Virus record (IMG/VR): IMGVR_UViG_3300032238_001229
Location: 1-49,517 of that record
DNA from: a virus
DNA length: 49,517 bases
Strand: one strand, 5' to 3'
In this document: positions 2,735 to 32,037 of the stretch, one piece after another
How the letters are laid out: each line of letters opens with the position of its first letter
Numbering within the stretch: position 1 is the first letter of the stretch
The notes under the pieces: model-generated
The model's input: the letters and a program-made list of their open reading frames with translations, nothing else
The model's database searches: none
Told to the model about the DNA's origin: nothing
Position numbers and translations under genes: made by a program

Positions 2735-4009
2735 ATGGCTAAACCTAAGCTTTTGTGGTGTGGTGACATTGTTGCCATGACGGGATTTGCCCGTGTCACA
2801 GAAAATGTGCTGGAACGAATCTGTGATCAGTATGAAGTTGTAGTGCTCTCCCACAACTGGTGGGGCGACCCGACTCCGCTGCAAAATAAGTACAAAATGT
2901 ATCCTTCGTCTAATCGTTTCCAAACTGCGCCGTTTGGAGAGGAACGCATTAGGGAAGTAGTAGAGAAGGAGAAGCCGGATATTGTGTTTACCATCAATGA
3001 TATGTGGATCATAAATGAACAATACAAACGCATTAAAGATTTGCATGAGCAAAAGCTATTTAAGTTTGTTGGTTATGCTCCCATGGATTCTTATGGGTGG
3101 ACTGGATGCTTGTCGGATACAGCCAATAGTTGGGATGCCGTCATTTCCTATACAGAATTTGGTGCACACGAATTTATTCAAGGTGGGATTCAAAAGCCTA
3201 TTACGATCATTTCACACGGGATTACCAGTGGGCAGTTTTACCCTATGGATAGGGCTGAAGCTCGTAAGCGGCTTGGCTTGAAAGACGATATTTTTATTGT
3301 TTTTAATGGTAACAGGAATCAATTTAGGAAACGCATTGATATTACAATTGAGGGTTTTGCAAAATTTGCAAAAGACAAACCTGATACTCAGTTGTACCTG
3401 CACATGGGCCTAAAGGACCAAGGATGGGACGTTATGCCTTTGTTTGCCAGGGCAATGCAGAGGGAAGGTATCGATCCCAATGGTCGCATCATTCTTACAG
3501 CGCAGACCAGTGGGCCGCCGAATGTGGAGGTTGATTTTTTGAATGCAATTTACAATGCGGTTGACGTAGGTATAAATACTTGCAAAGGGGAAGGCTGGGG
3601 GCTTGTGTCCCATGAGCATGCTGCCTGCCGTGTGGCGCAGGTAGTGCCGAACCATACGTCATGCAAAGAGATCTTTGAGGGCTACGGACGCCTTATCCGC
3701 TGCGACCACGTGGATGTGGATACCAACTACGCAAGGGAGATGCCGTGCCCCTCCAGTGACCACCTAGCTGCCGTCCTGACGGAACTGTACGAGGACCGGG
3801 AGAAGCTGGATGCTACGGCTGAGCTGTGCTACCTGCGGGCTACGGAAGAACAGTTCAACTGGGATACGATCGCACGTCAATTTGATGAGGTGTTCCAGGA
3901 GGCCCTTAACGCCCAAGCTGCTAGTGATGCGACGCAGAGTGAGACGCAACCTAAGAAGAAGAAAAAGGGTAAGCCGGTTAAGCGATCGGTTTATTCGGAA
4001 AGGGAATAA
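2735..4009 (+). CDS. Glycosyltransferase, GT4/GT-B type
   Basis: 424 residues. The N-terminal half (KPKLLWCGD, VVVLSHNWWGD, KPDIVFTINDMW) reads as the first Rossmann domain of a GT-B enzyme. The second half has IVFNGNRNQFRKRID, a long helical stretch and a GEGWGLVSHEHAACRVAQVV segment, which is the EX7E-type nucleotide-sugar site of GT4 enzymes. Acceptor and sugar are unknown; it could glycosylate phage proteins, modified DNA or host surface sugars. The C-terminus is very basic (KKKKKGKPVKR). Base composition changes inside the gene: from about 3590 it is clearly GC-richer than the first half, which hints at mosaic origin. It is the last gene before a strong terminator at 4036. Confidence 0.85.
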   Translation: MAKPKLLWCGDIVAMTGFARVTENVLERICDQYEVVVLSHNWWGDPTPLQNKYKMYPSSNRFQTAPFGEERIREVVEKEKPDIVFTINDMWIINEQYKRIKDLHEQKLFKFVGYAPMDSYGWTGCLSDTANSWDAVISYTEFGAHEFIQGGIQKPITIISHGITSGQFYPMDRAEARKRLGLKDDIFIVFNGNRNQFRKRIDITIEGFAKFAKDKPDTQLYLHMGLKDQGWDVMPLFARAMQREGIDPNGRIILTAQTSGPPNVEVDFLNAIYNAVDVGINTCKGEGWGLVSHEHAACRVAQVVPNHTSCKEIFEGYGRLIRCDHVDVDTNYAREMPCPSSDHLAAVLTELYEDREKLDATAELCYLRATEEQFNWDTIARQFDEVFQEALNAQAASDATQSETQPKKKKKGKPVKRSVYSERE

Positions 4010-4035
4010 CGGTCAATTATTAAGAAAACAAGTGG

Positions 4036-4061
4036 GCCTCCACGGAAGTGGGGGCTTTTTT
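4036..4061 (+). terminator. Rho-independent terminator after the replication operon
   Basis: An 8 bp GC-rich stem (GCCTCCAC / GTGGGGGC, one G-T wobble) with a GGAA tetraloop, directly followed by six T. It lies 26 bp after the glycosyltransferase stop and would end transcription of primase-speD-glycosyltransferase. Confidence 0.85.
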
Positions 4062-4077
4062 GTGGGTGGAATTGACC

Positions 4078-4123
4078 GACTTTACAGACTTTAGGATGCG
4101 ACTTTGGCGACTTTGTGGACTTT
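4078..4123 (+). repeat. Five GACTTT iterations (iteron-like)
   Basis: GACTTT starts at 4078, 4087, 4100, 4109 and 4118, with spacings of 9, 13, 9 and 9 bp. The inverse, AAAGTC, recurs at about 4285 and 4325 on the other side of the inverted repeat. Phased short repeats beside AT-rich palindromes are typical of initiator-binding sites; that role is inferred from layout only. Confidence 0.7.
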
Positions 4124-4304
4124 AGGGGTCGTTCCAAAAACTATGCCTAGCAAATTACAAGAAAATTCCAAGTTGTCATTTTTGTTGCGGATTGTTAATT
4201 CTCATAATTGTTACAAAACGACACAACCATTACAACTTGGAATTTTTTTGTAATTTGCTTAGGAGAGTTTTTAAGATGACCCCTAAAGTCCGAAGAGTCG
4301 CATC
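4095..4304. repeat. 210 bp imperfect inverted repeat, candidate origin or fold-back element
   Basis: The left arm from 4095 and the right arm ending at 4304 are near reverse complements. Matching blocks run from the outside in: GATGCGACT (4095) with AGTCGCATC (4296-4304); GGACTTTAGGGGTC (4117-4130) with GACCCCTAAAGTCC (4278-4291), perfect; AAAAACT; then a ~32 bp block, CCTAGCAAATTACAA plus AAATTCCAAGTTGT (4146-4177), against 4230-4263 with very few differences. The centre (~4178-4229) is AT-rich. ACCCCTAAAGTCCG is also repeated directly at 4279-4292 and 4319-4332. Together with the GACTTT array and the upstream primase/helicase operon this could be a replication origin. A MITE-like fold-back element is the main alternative. 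No gene is visible between 4010 and 4332. Confidence 0.85.
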
Positions 4305-4332
4305 AAACTCTGCACATAACCCCTAAAGTCCG

Positions 4333-4689
4333 GTGCTAGAGTCCCATGACACCGCCAATTTCCCCATGCCAGCTCCCGTAAAAAGCCTTCCACCCTTGGA
4401 GGACCTGCAGAAAATTGTTCGGTTATCGAATGCCTACCCCTCAGGCCTGGAGTGGGCCGTCAGTGACCGGTGGAGGGAGGAAGGGAAGCAGGCCGGTGCG
4501 CTTTCTAGGCCCAACCCCTACTACGTCGTCAGGCTCCTGGGAGGCAAGTATGTGGCCCATAGGATCGTCTACTACATGCGGACAGGCAGGGACACGCCTA
4601 AGGAGATCCTGCACCTGGCAGACAACCTGGAACGGGACAACCGCAGGGAACTCGTCGAAAACACCCGTGGCGCCAGGAAAGTAGGTTGA
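4333..4689 (+). CDS. Small GC-rich protein, possible degenerate HNH relic
   Basis: 118 residues from a GTG start that abuts the second ACCCCTAAAGTCCG repeat; ATG at 4366 is the other plausible start. The C-terminal part (YVAHRIVYYMRTGRDT, LHLADNLERDNRRELVENT) resembles the His-Arg helix and trailing Asn segment of small phage HNH nucleases, but the central His-Asp of a working site is not visible, so it may be inactive or unrelated. Its base composition (roughly 60% GC by eye) is far above its neighbours, suggesting separate acquisition. It is followed 5 bp later by an HNH-type gene on the same strand. Confidence 0.6.
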   Translation: MLESHDTANFPMPAPVKSLPPLEDLQKIVRLSNAYPSGLEWAVSDRWREEGKQAGALSRPNPYYVVRLLGGKYVAHRIVYYMRTGRDTPKEILHLADNLERDNRRELVENTRGARKVG

Positions 4690-4694
4690 TTGAT

Positions 4695-5372
4695 ATGGCA
4701 AACTTATATAAACCAGCCCAACCCCAACTTCTTCGTTATGTGAATCTTATTGATAATCTTGACGGAGCCCAGCTTGAGAACGAAGGGTACTATCGCGGTT
4801 ACCCATGTCCCCATGGACATGTCATTCGAGACATTGAGCATCACTGGTGTTACCACTGCGCTAGAAAAATTGGTTCCAACGTTTGTGGCTTTGACGTAAA
4901 CTATCTTCATAAAGCATACAAAGTGAAGTATGCAAATCTCTGGCACAAAATAAACATTGGCTTTCCTGAGGATTGCTGGGAGTTCAAAAGTACTGGCAGC
5001 CATACCCCCAAAAGAGTTTGCATTCCCTCTTATCGTTCCGATTACAGCAAACAAAAATCTGAAAACGTTAACGTACACAAAGCGTTATATCAGTGTGCTT
5101 GGGGAGATGTTGGATCTCTGCTGGTGACCAGGGTATGCAGTAATCCAAAGTGTTGCAATCCATTGCACATGGTTTCTACATTGAATACTGCTGCTGCGCC
5201 ACCGCAGTCCATTGCTCCATTTGAAATTGACTTTAAAGCGGAAAAGTTAATGTTGTTTAGCCGCCAAGAATTGCTTAATAATCAGCCAGAAAAAATTGTA
5301 GAAGAATCATTTAAACACACCATAACAAATCCGTTATATGCCAAGGCTCCCCCTGAATATGACGAAGGGTAG
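4695..5372 (+). CDS. HNH-type endonuclease with zinc ribbon
   Basis: 225 residues from ATG 4695; a TTG at 4686 is in frame, but ATG is preferred. The N-terminal part holds CPHGH and, 15 residues on, CYHCARKI, a zinc-ribbon pattern. The C-terminal half has VNVHKALYQCAWG followed by CSNPKCCNPLHM, the His and Cys/Asn-His ends of HNH_3-like nucleases found in phages. Such enzymes nick or cut DNA for packaging or homing. This arrangement (conserved block with CWEFKSTG and RVCIPSYRS) is familiar from cyanophage HNH proteins. It lies alone between two unrelated genes, so a homing role is possible but unproven. Confidence 0.75.
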   Translation: MANLYKPAQPQLLRYVNLIDNLDGAQLENEGYYRGYPCPHGHVIRDIEHHWCYHCARKIGSNVCGFDVNYLHKAYKVKYANLWHKINIGFPEDCWEFKSTGSHTPKRVCIPSYRSDYSKQKSENVNVHKALYQCAWGDVGSLLVTRVCSNPKCCNPLHMVSTLNTAAAPPQSIAPFEIDFKAEKLMLFSRQELLNNQPEKIVEESFKHTITNPLYAKAPPEYDEG

Positions 5373-8358: not shown

Positions 8359-11300
8359 TTAGTTGGCCTGCATAGTAATCCAGTTTGTTCCGTCACTTAC
8401 AAGTGTAGCGTATTTGCCGGCAGTAGCAGCAAGGATTGCAGTGCCTGCTGCGCCACCTGCAAGGGGAACAACGTTAGACGATGCAGAAACAACCGTAAAA
8501 GCAGCAATAGTTTTTAACATTACCTCACGACCTGTCCATGAACTTGCTGCTGGCAAAGTGACAGTAATTGTTGCTGTACCATTACAAATAATCCAATTTT
8601 CTGTAATAGCAAGAGTAAAGCTAGCTGTCTTTGTTACTGGTGCACCACGCCCGATTGAGCCGGTGTGTGACGCAAAGCCATTGCTATCAATTCGCATCCG
8701 CTCAGTTGAACTAGCTGCACCATCTGCCGTAGTGGAGAACACTAGGCGGCCTGGCATGTCGTTGGTGCCAGGGGTGCCGTCTACAAAAGATTCAATTATC
8801 GCAGCACAAGTAACATTGGTTGCATCATCTCCACTAAATGTAATGCGGCCCAAGCGATCTCCGCTAGCAACAGCTCCGCTACTTTTTAAGTAGTTAAACT
8901 CAAGCTGAACACCCGTGGAGCCACCCGCGAAATCTTCTCCATTTATTGCAATTGCAGTTGCATTTGAGGCAGCATTTAAACCATTGCAGTAGGAAATGTA
9001 AGGGGCAGCTTGGCCTGTTAGTGTGACCCCTGTCCCTGAATCTGCAATTCTATGGGATGAACGGAAAGCGTTGCCACTAGCAGAGGCTTGGGCATTAACT
9101 TGCAGTAATGCGGTGCCGCTCGTAGACGTGCCAACTAAGAGCCTGCCGCTGTTGTCAATTCTGACGGACTCAGAGGATAACCCAGACTTCCAGAATGATG
9201 TACCGCTAGTGCCGCCCTGAAAGCGCAATTCATTTGTTGCATCAGTTCTGATATAACCGTTGTCACCAAAACTGACGTAACCATTGCCACCGCTAAACCT
9301 TCCAGCGCCAGCAACATCTAAGAGATAACTTGCCCCAGGGCTCGTAGTGCCAATCCCTAATCGCCCCGACGCATCCAACGTCATCGCCTGGGTGAAACTG
9401 ATGGTGTTGCCTGCGGTGCCGGAGGGGGCAGTGTACCAATAGTGGGCGCCAGTGTTGAGTTGATACAGGCCAGCAGCAGCAGTAGTTTTGTACAGCCAAC
9501 CAGAGGGATTATTGTAAGCATTGTTGGACAATGCTATATTAGCGCCATTTGAGCCTATTGCATTTGAATTACTAAATTCAATAACTTTCCATGTTGATAG
9601 CCAAGCACTCGGCACCCCCCCAATCCCAACGTTGCCGCTGCTGTCGATGCGGGCGCGTTCGGTGTTGCCGCCTGCATTAAGCAGTAAGTTTGCTTCCGCT
9701 CGAATAGCAAAATCCGCACTAGTGCCGGTAGTTGTAGCGCTTCCCCCTGCTCCCATGTATCCGATCACAGATGCACCGGAGTTCAAAAAAGTGCCGTAAT
9801 CATATCCAGCAGTTGTGCCCCTAAAGGTAAACCACGTTGTACTTGCTTGACTGACAACATACAATGCTGCCGTGGGGCTTGTAGTGCCAATCCCTACGTT
9901 GCCTGTTGCTGTGATGCGGAGGCGTTCAGTAAGTGAGCTATCAGCGGTTGAATTTCGTGTAGATATAGCCAAAAAGCCGGTCGTATTAGCTGCAGACGCA
10001 GTAAGACCACCACGAATAGAAGCAAAATATGTGCTTAAATAACCACCAAAAAATATGTCCCCTCCCTCTTGCGAGACTATGTCTGTTGTGCCAAGAAGTA
10101 AATTATTGCTAGTAGCGGCACATTTAATATCAACTTGGCTACTAGGTAAATTAGTACCAATCCCAACGTTGCCGCTTGCATCTACATACAGTCGCCCGGT
10201 ACCGCTAGTGCTGATAGCCAGTTGATTTGTTCCCGGAGAATAAAAACCATTGCTTGTGGTACCAACAGAAACAGAAGGAGCTCCTGCAGTACCTGATGCA
10301 AACACACCTGACGTAAAGTTTGCTGTTTGACCAGTAACTGTTGTACCTGAAAGAGTTACAAAATTAGCTGTAGTACCAGTAACTGTTGTACCTGAAAGAG
10401 TTACAAAATTAGCTGTAGTACCAGTAACCGTAACGCCTGTTACCGTACCAAAACCAGCTCTTACGCCAGTAACATCTGTAAATTGACCGGCATTACCAGT
10501 GACTGTTCCTCCTGATAAAAATGTAGTAAATACGCCTGATACACCATTAACAGTTGTAAAATTAGCGGCAGTACCGGTAGTTGTAGTGCCCGTCAAAGAT
10601 GTATAGTTACCTGTAGTTGCAATTACAGTGGTGCCAGTAATTGTTGCTCCAGATAAAAATGTAGTAAATACGCCAGACGCACCGTTATATGTTACAAAAT
10701 TAGCAGTGGTGCCAGTAGTTGTAGTACCTGTTAACGATGTATAGTTGCCAGTAGTTGCAACAACTGTTACACCTGATAGCAATGTACTAAAATTACCGGT
10801 TGTAAAGTTAGCCGTGGTACCAGTTACTGTTGCACCTGTAATAACAGTAAAAGCCCCTGAAACACCTGTGACAGTTGTAAATTGTCCATTTGTTCCAGTA
10901 ACAGTTATACCGCTAATTGTTCCGGTTACGCTAACTCCTGATTGAAAATATCCGGTACCTAGAACAGTTAAATCACCTGAGACAGTAGCACTTGAAAACT
11001 GAAGGTTTGAAAAAACGCCAGTAGCAGCTCTAACCGTTACTCCACTGAGAAGAACTCCGGTAACATTTGTAAAGTTTGCATTACCGCCAGTAAGTGTTGT
11101 AAATTGGCCAGCATTACCTGTAATTGTTGTTCCTGATAACGTAACAAAATTAGCAATTGTCCCAGTAACAGTTGCACCTGTGATTACGGTAAACCCACCG
11201 GAAATACCAGTGACTGTTGTAAATTGACCGCTTGTTCCAGTAACTGTTATGCCCGATACACTAGTACTAAAAGTGCCAGTTGCAAAGTTAGCTGTAGTGC

Positions 11301-12015
11301 CCGTTACCGTAACACCAGTAAGAGAAGTAAATGCACCAGATACACCAGTAATTGTTAAGCCTGAAATACGAGAAGTAAATACACCACTGACAAAATTACC
11401 ACTGGTACCCGTTACAGTTGCTCCAGTAATAGAAGTAAAACCTGCAGTATTTCCGGTAAGCGTGGTAAATTTTGCTGCATCACCAGTAATCGAACTAACG
11501 TTTACCGTAGTGCCTGTAATGGTTTGACCAGTAAAAGAAGTAAAGGCACCTGACGCACCAGTAATTGTTACGCCACTAATTCTTTGAAGAAAGTTGCCAG
11601 TAGTAAAATTTAATTCGCCGCCGGTTAATGTTGTAAAATTACCCAAGACACCATTGACGTTAGTACCTTGAATATTGGAACCTGTAACGGTAGCGCCACT
11701 AATTGTGCCGCTGACAGTTGCCCCACTTTGAGCAATAAGGGAGCCAACGGTAACTGCGCCCGTAAATGTAGCTGTTGCAAAGTTTGTACTACCGGAAACC
11801 GTAAGATTTCCTTGAACAATAACTGCACCGCTAATGGTTCCACCAGTGCGGGGTAGATAATACGTATTGAGATATTGTTTTGTGCCCGATATGGTTAATT
11901 TTCTATTTTTTAGTGTTGGGTCAACTTCGCTTACGTGAACAACCGTAAACAGGTCCTGATCTGCTAAGTCAAGACCTGCAAGTTCTTGGAGCTCAGATAT
12001 GCGCCTGTTAGCCAC
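8359..12015 (-). CDS. Giant repetitive tail fibre / adhesin
   Basis: 1218 residues. The N-terminus (~70 aa) is non-repetitive (RRISELQELAGLDLADQDLF). It is followed by roughly 500 residues of short repeats of the type TVTGTTANFVTLSG, rich in Thr, Gly, Ser and Val, which suggest a beta-helical shaft. The second half carries NVGIGTTSP/GRLGIGTTSPG modules, common in phage tail fibres and trimeric adhesins, and a final domain (TATITVTLPAASSW, GTNWITMQAN) seen at fibre tips. It should bind the host surface. DNA-level repeats in the shaft allow length change by recombination. No chaperone or peptidase-type tip domain was recognised. Confidence 0.9.
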   Translation of the reverse strand: MANRRISELQELAGLDLADQDLFTVVHVSEVDPTLKNRKLTISGTKQYLNTYYLPRTGGTISGAVIVQGNLTVSGSTNFATATFTGAVTVGSLIAQSGATVSGTISGATVTGSNIQGTNVNGVLGNFTTLTGGELNFTTGNFLQRISGVTITGASGAFTSFTGQTITGTTVNVSSITGDAAKFTTLTGNTAGFTSITGATVTGTSGNFVSGVFTSRISGLTITGVSGAFTSLTGVTVTGTTANFATGTFSTSVSGITVTGTSGQFTTVTGISGGFTVITGATVTGTIANFVTLSGTTITGNAGQFTTLTGGNANFTNVTGVLLSGVTVRAATGVFSNLQFSSATVSGDLTVLGTGYFQSGVSVTGTISGITVTGTNGQFTTVTGVSGAFTVITGATVTGTTANFTTGNFSTLLSGVTVVATTGNYTSLTGTTTTGTTANFVTYNGASGVFTTFLSGATITGTTVIATTGNYTSLTGTTTTGTAANFTTVNGVSGVFTTFLSGGTVTGNAGQFTDVTGVRAGFGTVTGVTVTGTTANFVTLSGTTVTGTTANFVTLSGTTVTGQTANFTSGVFASGTAGAPSVSVGTTSNGFYSPGTNQLAISTSGTGRLYVDASGNVGIGTNLPSSQVDIKCAATSNNLLLGTTDIVSQEGGDIFFGGYLSTYFASIRGGLTASAANTTGFLAISTRNSTADSSLTERLRITATGNVGIGTTSPTAALYVVSQASTTWFTFRGTTAGYDYGTFLNSGASVIGYMGAGGSATTTGTSADFAIRAEANLLLNAGGNTERARIDSSGNVGIGGVPSAWLSTWKVIEFSNSNAIGSNGANIALSNNAYNNPSGWLYKTTAAAGLYQLNTGAHYWYTAPSGTAGNTISFTQAMTLDASGRLGIGTTSPGASYLLDVAGAGRFSGGNGYVSFGDNGYIRTDATNELRFQGGTSGTSFWKSGLSSESVRIDNSGRLLVGTSTSGTALLQVNAQASASGNAFRSSHRIADSGTGVTLTGQAAPYISYCNGLNAASNATAIAINGEDFAGGSTGVQLEFNYLKSSGAVASGDRLGRITFSGDDATNVTCAAIIESFVDGTPGTNDMPGRLVFSTTADGAASSTERMRIDSNGFASHTGSIGRGAPVTKTASFTLAITENWIICNGTATITVTLPAASSWTGREVMLKTIAAFTVVSASSNVVPLAGGAAGTAILAATAGKYATLVSDGTNWITMQAN
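10331..10420 (-). repeat. Perfect 45 bp tandem repeat in the fibre shaft
   Basis: Two identical adjacent 45 bp units start at 10331 and 10376, coding for a 15-residue shaft unit (VTLSGTTVTGTTANF type). A larger, diverged duplication with a 138 bp period lies at about 10511 and 10649. Identity at DNA level points to recent slippage or unequal recombination. Confidence 0.85.
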
Positions 12016-31211: not shown

Positions 31212-32037
31212 CTGGTCTCTAGTTTCTTAGAGGGGTGGACTATCTCTTCATCCCTGAGGGATGCCGGACGCTAAATCTGGTATTACGCAGTAAGTTCGTA
31301 CTGCCCCCAGTAGTCTCTGCACCTTCCAATCACGGGCTTGATTGGCTTGGCTCAGGATTGCCCTCGTCTTTACGTTAGGGTTTCCCTGAATTCATCCGGT
31401 TTTCACTCATTAATTGCTTAATGAGGTGACAACGCTGAGCGTTCAGTTGAGGTGTGCTAAGCTTTGGAAACTTGTTCATGAACAAAATGAATCCAAAACT
31501 TGTACCTGGATTTGGAAATCTTTACCTTACAGAGGAGGGAGAGGCTTACGAAAAACAACTCAACCAAGATGATCAAGAGTATTTTCGTAAAATTCCTATT
31601 AGCTCAACCAGTGTGTACAACCGTATCTCGGTTCTTGTTAATGGAAAAAGAAAAAGATTTCATCTCCATGTTTTAATGGCTGTGGCCTTTTTAGGATTAG
31701 ATCTACGTTCACATGGAACTAGTAACTTTTCCTTACAAGTTGACCACATTGACAATAACAAGAAAAACAACTGTGTCGCAAATCTTGAAATTGTGACCAA
31801 ACAAGAAAACTTAACAAGAGCCTGGAAAACCGGATGTTACAAAAACAATGGGTTTGCTAGTAAGGGAAAACCAAAAAAAACTTTAAGAAAATTTTCTTCG
31901 GAAGACGTGGAGCAAATTAAATCTTTAAAAGAAGCAGGTCTTTCATATAGAAAGATAGCTGAAAAATTTAACTGCGGTCACGTAGCTATTTACCAAATCA
32001 TTAGCGGTAACACCTACCAGGATCTGAACTAGCTATC
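31212..32037 (-). ncRNA. Group I intron (subgroup IA-like) in the capsid gene
   Basis: Read on the minus strand, the conserved catalytic core is present in order: P element AATTCAGGGAAACCC (31393-31379), Q element AATCCTGAGCCAAGCC (31359-31344), R element GGTGCAGAGACTAC (~31323-31310), S element GAAGAGATAGTCCA (~31249-31236). P3 pairs CCGGA with TCCGG; P8 is CATCCC-TCA-GGGATG; the stem GCAGTA/TACTGC between R and P3' fits the P7.1/P7.2 extras of subgroup IA, as in T4 introns; P9 is CTCTA/TAGAG. The 3' end is placed after ACCAG (31212) because that keeps the reading frame. The 5' end is placed at 32037 (or 32034). The internal guide sequence was not found, so the 5' boundary is tentative. An HNH gene lies inside on the other strand. 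Confidence 0.88.
31478..32032 (+). CDS. HNH homing endonuclease inside the capsid intron (opposite strand)
   Basis: 184 residues from ATG 31478; GTG 31454 is the longer option. KRKRFHLHVLMAVAFLG, LQVDHIDNNKKNNCVANLEI and VTKQENLTRAW make a canonical HNH_3 nuclease. The C-terminus (FSSEDVEQIKSLKEAGLSYR then KIAEKFN) is a helix-turn-helix as in intron-encoded homing enzymes. Its stop ends 5 bases before the proposed 5' splice site. It would cut intron-less capsid genes of related phages and spread the intron. It is antisense to the capsid transcript, so it needs its own promoter; a GAGGTG lies at 31449. Confidence 0.9.
   Translation: MNKMNPKLVPGFGNLYLTEEGEAYEKQLNQDDQEYFRKIPISSTSVYNRISVLVNGKRKRFHLHVLMAVAFLGLDLRSHGTSNFSLQVDHIDNNKKNNCVANLEIVTKQENLTRAWKTGCYKNNGFASKGKPKKTLRKFSSEDVEQIKSLKEAGLSYRKIAEKFNCGHVAIYQIISGNTYQDLN

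Follow-up and report, generated by a model that had tools for sequence, protein, structure and literature searches.

An iteron-flanked palindrome in an S-EIV1-like cyanophage is identified here as a candidate replication origin. With a probability that we put at roughly 0.78, this element is the cis-acting origin of the phage or the main region to which its initiator binds. It lies in a 49.5-kb virus record, which was analysed at full length (the window) and is probably a fragment of a virus genome; its primase-helicase gene is cut by the contig start. Among named phages, its closest relative is Synechococcus phage S-EIV1 (KJ410740). Layout and place of the element are fixed across dozens of relatives while its letters change, which makes a replication start site its most likely function. 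By comparison with known systems, the candidate would most likely be a variant that joins iterons like those of P4 to a palindrome like that of pRN1.

Anatomy and genome setting

The element spans 4077–4343 and is non-coding. Its parts and neighbours are listed by window position and strand.

2–2359, +: primase-helicase (PriCT_2, D5_N, DUF5906 AAA+/SF3-type helicase), N-terminus lost at the contig start; proposed initiator
1919–2215, +: C-terminal winged-helix domain with a predicted P4 origin-binding-like fold (AlphaFold2, Foldseek, VIA-align)
2352–2711, +: S-adenosylmethionine decarboxylase, within the primase-helicase gene run
2735–4009, +: glycosyltransferase, final gene of the run, directly 5' of the element
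4034–4064, +: terminator-like hairpin with a T run (stem 4034–4057), between the glycosyltransferase gene and the element
4077–4129, +: left iteron cluster, five GACTTT, terminating in GGACTTTAGGGGT (4117–4129)
4107–4195, +: palindrome left arm
4166–4242, no strand: asymmetric core, ends approximate, inverted in some relatives
4196–4212, no strand: spacer separating the arms
4213–4301, −: palindrome right arm
4276–4343, −: right iteron cluster, inverted, with GGACTTTAGGGGT at 4279–4291 and 4319–4331 and GACTCT at 4294 and 4338
4366–4689, +: HNH1, a small HNH-type ORF (phrog_99), missing in some relatives
4695–5372, +: HNH2, an HNH endonuclease (phrog_1872), located 3' of the element in almost every relative

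Five phased GACTTT repeats, as described in the original prediction, were found on the + strand at 4078, 4087, 4100, 4109 and 4118 (spacings of 9, 13, 9 and 9), and two more copies lie inverted on the − strand at 4285 and 4325. This gives seven GACTTT within 260 bp (Poisson P ~1.6e-10), where no other 260-bp stretch of the window has more than two. The predicted 210-bp palindrome was also confirmed. It consists of an imperfect inverted repeat (4107–4195/4213–4301) with 89-nt arms, 79% complementary and separated by a 17-nt gap, and gapped extension takes it to ~4100–4310 (~211 bp). Its gapped self-complement score was 159, whereas dinucleotide shuffles averaged 21.6 and reached no more than 29 (z 43.7), and the fold of the region under DNA energy parameters gave z = −13.5. 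No other inverted repeat in the window reaches 40 nt and none is stronger. The directly repeated arm motif proved to be ATGACCCCTAAAGTCCG, at 4276–4292 and 4316–4332. All three occurrences of GGACTTTAGGGG in the window fall inside the element.

The element comes after the gene run for replication and the hairpin that closes it, a placement characteristic of the class of P4/pRN1-type origins downstream of a primase-helicase. It had been described as directly following the replication operon and terminator; a terminator-like hairpin is indeed present, and the adjacent gene is the glycosyltransferase that ends the run. The palindrome was also considered as terminator of the upstream run, and this was rejected in view of the separate terminator-like hairpin at 4034–4057.

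Other features were observed in the window. A group I intron at 31216–31487 (−), matched by Rfam RF00028 at 94.5 bits, lies upstream of the ORF for the major head protein, and the intron edge is overlapped on the opposite strand by an ORF at 31454–32032 (+) that appears HNH endonuclease-like by eye. At 8359–12015 (−), a 1218-aa ORF without a Pfam match is encoded by DNA that contains numerous degenerate direct repeats.

Conservation among relatives

Eighty loci with mostly shared gene order were collected via the glycosyltransferase, and the element occupies the same place in most of them. The region between glycosyltransferase and HNH was tested for inverted repeats in 58 non-redundant relatives at a threshold of z ≥6. 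A long inverted repeat passed in 44, with the glycosyltransferase 5' and the HNH genes 3'; the other 14 fell below z 6, which was counted against the origin reading. S-EIV1 itself shares the gene order and has an inverted repeat in the matching place, at ~7.7–8.1 kb of its record, although this is weaker (z 7.7) and its repeat word differs. Despite the fixed position, the letters of the element diverge widely among relatives. The mirrored repeats are thereby kept in structure and not in sequence, a further mark of the P4/pRN1-type origin class. For direct repeats, the family-wide spacing distribution peaks at 8–9 (54 and 40 pairs, versus fewer than 4 expected), with additional excess at 11, 21 and 31.

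Besides the window, the genomes examined were those of S-EIV1 and of four virus records (81–85 kb), six in all. The element was the top inverted repeat in all six, and the tested repeat words were nearly absent outside it. In four virus contigs that share the repeat word, the same element is present at the same location. The original prediction had left the choice between an origin and a mobile element to a search for the palindrome in related phages. Its constant place in most of them, with tested words almost never found elsewhere, favors the origin and leaves the mobile alternative unsupported. A fold-back element or MITE might be suspected from the terminal-inverted-repeat-like ends (GGACTTTAGGGGT) and the AT-rich centre. 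However, the locus is constant in relatives and its sequence diverges along with the phage, a second copy is absent from all six genomes, no plasmid matched, and matches to other phages were at chance level only. Copies at unrelated loci were not found among these searches, and the mobile reading was rejected as highly improbable. The other proposed check, cumulative GC skew, was run on several genomes and gave no consistent answer, as there was no consistent turn at the element and the extremes differed in place between genomes.

The predicted fold is very stable with DNA energy parameters, as would be expected if transcribed arms paired into a long hairpin and the element worked as a structured RNA. 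Pooling 796 arm mispairs yielded 146 G·T versus 166 A·C, thus showing no strand-specific wobble excess. This lack of G-U excess indicates that the element acts as DNA rather than RNA, with neither strand favored. A search of Rfam gave no match at the element, and the terminator-like hairpin precedes it. We accordingly dismissed the RNA reading, which has very little probability left.

The primase-helicase as candidate initiator

Full-length relatives of the truncated primase-helicase comprise a Prim-Pol domain (PF09250) followed by PriCT_2, D5_N and DUF5906. For the C-terminus of the window protein, the predicted fold resembles the origin-binding domain of phage P4. The AlphaFold2 model of this region had pLDDT ~80–94 across most of the domain, and the P4 crystal structure 1KA8 ranked first with both aligners (Foldseek, E 3.3e-3, prob 1.00; VIA-align, Z 9.5 over 89 residues). 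The tblastn alignment of the primase-helicase with P4 alpha likewise extends through the C-terminal region. The combination of primase, D5/SF3-type helicase and (here predicted) C-terminal winged helix is that of the origin class.

Similarity in repeat vocabulary between loci tracked primase-helicase identity above that of the nearer glycosyltransferase and HNH2 (partial r 0.20–0.25, permutation p 0.003), and iteron classes assigned by hand and eye concurred. The automated test gave small effect sizes and controlled shared ancestry only partly, so the correlation is support for the pairing and not proof of it.

The same correlation bears on two readings centred on the HNH genes. In the first, the adjacent HNH nuclease would use the element as a site of nicking or recombination, for instance in nick-started replication or homing. 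HNH2 adjoins the element in nearly all relatives, and the stem-loop of phage BPP-1 likewise has an annotated endonuclease downstream; yet the vocabulary follows the primase better than HNH2, and the comparable P4 and pRN1 elements have no annotated endonuclease alongside. We regard a nuclease site as very unlikely. In the second, the element is a promoter/operator for the HNH genes, in which the mirrored words bind a phage regulator and the core is perhaps an invertible promoter. Its location between the terminator and these genes would suit this role, as would the inverted core of one subclade and the right iterons near the HNH start codon, where −10-like words were seen by eye in several relatives. 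On the other hand, the tested words are nearly confined to the element whereas a phage-wide regulator usually has several sites, mirrored sites that span as much as ~300 bp exceed the needs of one rightward promoter, no recombinase gene was identified adjoining the element, and the repeats follow the primase best. Regulation as the sole function is thus unlikely, if less so than a nuclease site, and the element may serve both as origin and as promoter/operator.

For the origin reading, we infer the following steps of binding, melting, priming and bidirectional replication. The C-terminal winged helix of the primase-helicase would bind the iterons, which are mirrored on both sides; the GACTTT iterons here mostly recur every 9 bp, roughly a turn of the helix. 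Two facing AAA+/SF3-type rings would then assemble and separate the strands in the core and the inner arms, which are AT-rich. Priming of both strands by the Prim-Pol domain would establish two forks.

Known and proposed origins and the possible role of the palindrome

In the P4 record, the alpha stop codon is followed by a terminator and then by crr, whose type 1 repeats point in either direction. P4 therefore resembles the cyanophage in its succession of primase stop, terminator and short repeats both ways, and in an initiator with a winged-helix origin-binding domain. In contrast, crr consists of two 120-bp direct repeats without a single long palindrome, a separate ori lies several kb from crr, the alpha primase is of Toprim type (PMC4234260) rather than Prim-Pol, and in the cyanophage two genes intervene between primase and element. 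The Sulfolobus plasmid pRN1 carries a ~100-bp stem-loop after its replication gene and terminator, and this is required for replication (PMC4234260). Its replication protein is also built from Prim-Pol, SF3 helicase and winged helix, and the stem-loop is conserved in structure but not in sequence (PMC4234260); the element is, however, shorter than that of the cyanophage and lacks a long array. pRN1 has been described as without iteron structure (PMC4234260). By our reading by eye, TGTCCA occurs twice in each of its arms, at a spacing of 10 bp. The BIP-1 primase likewise has a similar stem-loop on its 3' side, for which an origin function was proposed (PMC4234260). The pRN1 and BPP-1 elements were both recomputed for the present comparison. 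BPP-1/BIP-1 share with the cyanophage a PriCT_2-type Prim-Pol protein and a long downstream inverted repeat, with tandem TTGCCTCGTT in the arms, but the stem-loop is shorter (~104 bp) and the host is Bordetella.

Generality was assessed by seeking an inverted repeat downstream of the primase at eight loci outside the S-EIV1 group. Only BPP-1 had a strong one. Those of pRN1, P4 and Marinobacter phage PS6 were weak (scores of 45, 40 and 38 versus shuffle maxima of 40, 37 and 39), the top P4 repeat being distinct from the crr repeats themselves. The remaining four loci (uncultured LR797314, Alteromonas R9Y1, Sasha and Tbat2_2) had no strong downstream inverted repeat, which also counts against the origin reading. 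The weak repeat of PS6 lies ~145–430 nt past the primase stop and has a similar plan, with tandem TGTCCC words in its arms.

Two natural rearrangements concern the palindrome itself. The core in L007, L008 and L009 is opposite in orientation to that in the window and L004, the single inversion event found, which occurred within the window's own subclade. In L047, L070 and L078, the arms are separated by ~780 bp and a ~0.8-kb gene (ORF of ~250 aa) lies in the gap; the insertion point corresponds to the centre of the palindrome in the relative L075. Both arms are retained in these three, with weaker scores. Adjacency of the arms may thus be dispensable, and this favors mirrored binding sites, rather than a hairpin, as what may matter in the element. 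The inserted ORF, ~0.4–1.2 kb past the glycosyltransferase stop, appears glycosyltransferase-like by eye. In a separate observation, L010, L012 and L014 have similar right arms while only L014 has the matching left arm, a pattern that would fit the copying of one arm onto the other.

More tentatively, the pRN1/BPP-1 stem-loops and the P4 iteron origins could form one class, defined by two clusters of initiator sites in mirror orientation that flank an AT-rich core, with the sites spaced at roughly one turn of the helix. The hairpin would then not be the functional form, but would arise incidentally from the mirroring of sites and from copying between the arms. We consider this unification possible, with the odds somewhat against it. 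Whether the hairpin or mirrored protein-binding sites are required was left open by the work on pRN1, and the dozens of natural variants, one core inversion and one gene insertion described here bear on that question. If the origin reading is correct, a widespread cyanophage lineage would gain a candidate pair of origin and initiator that is directly testable.
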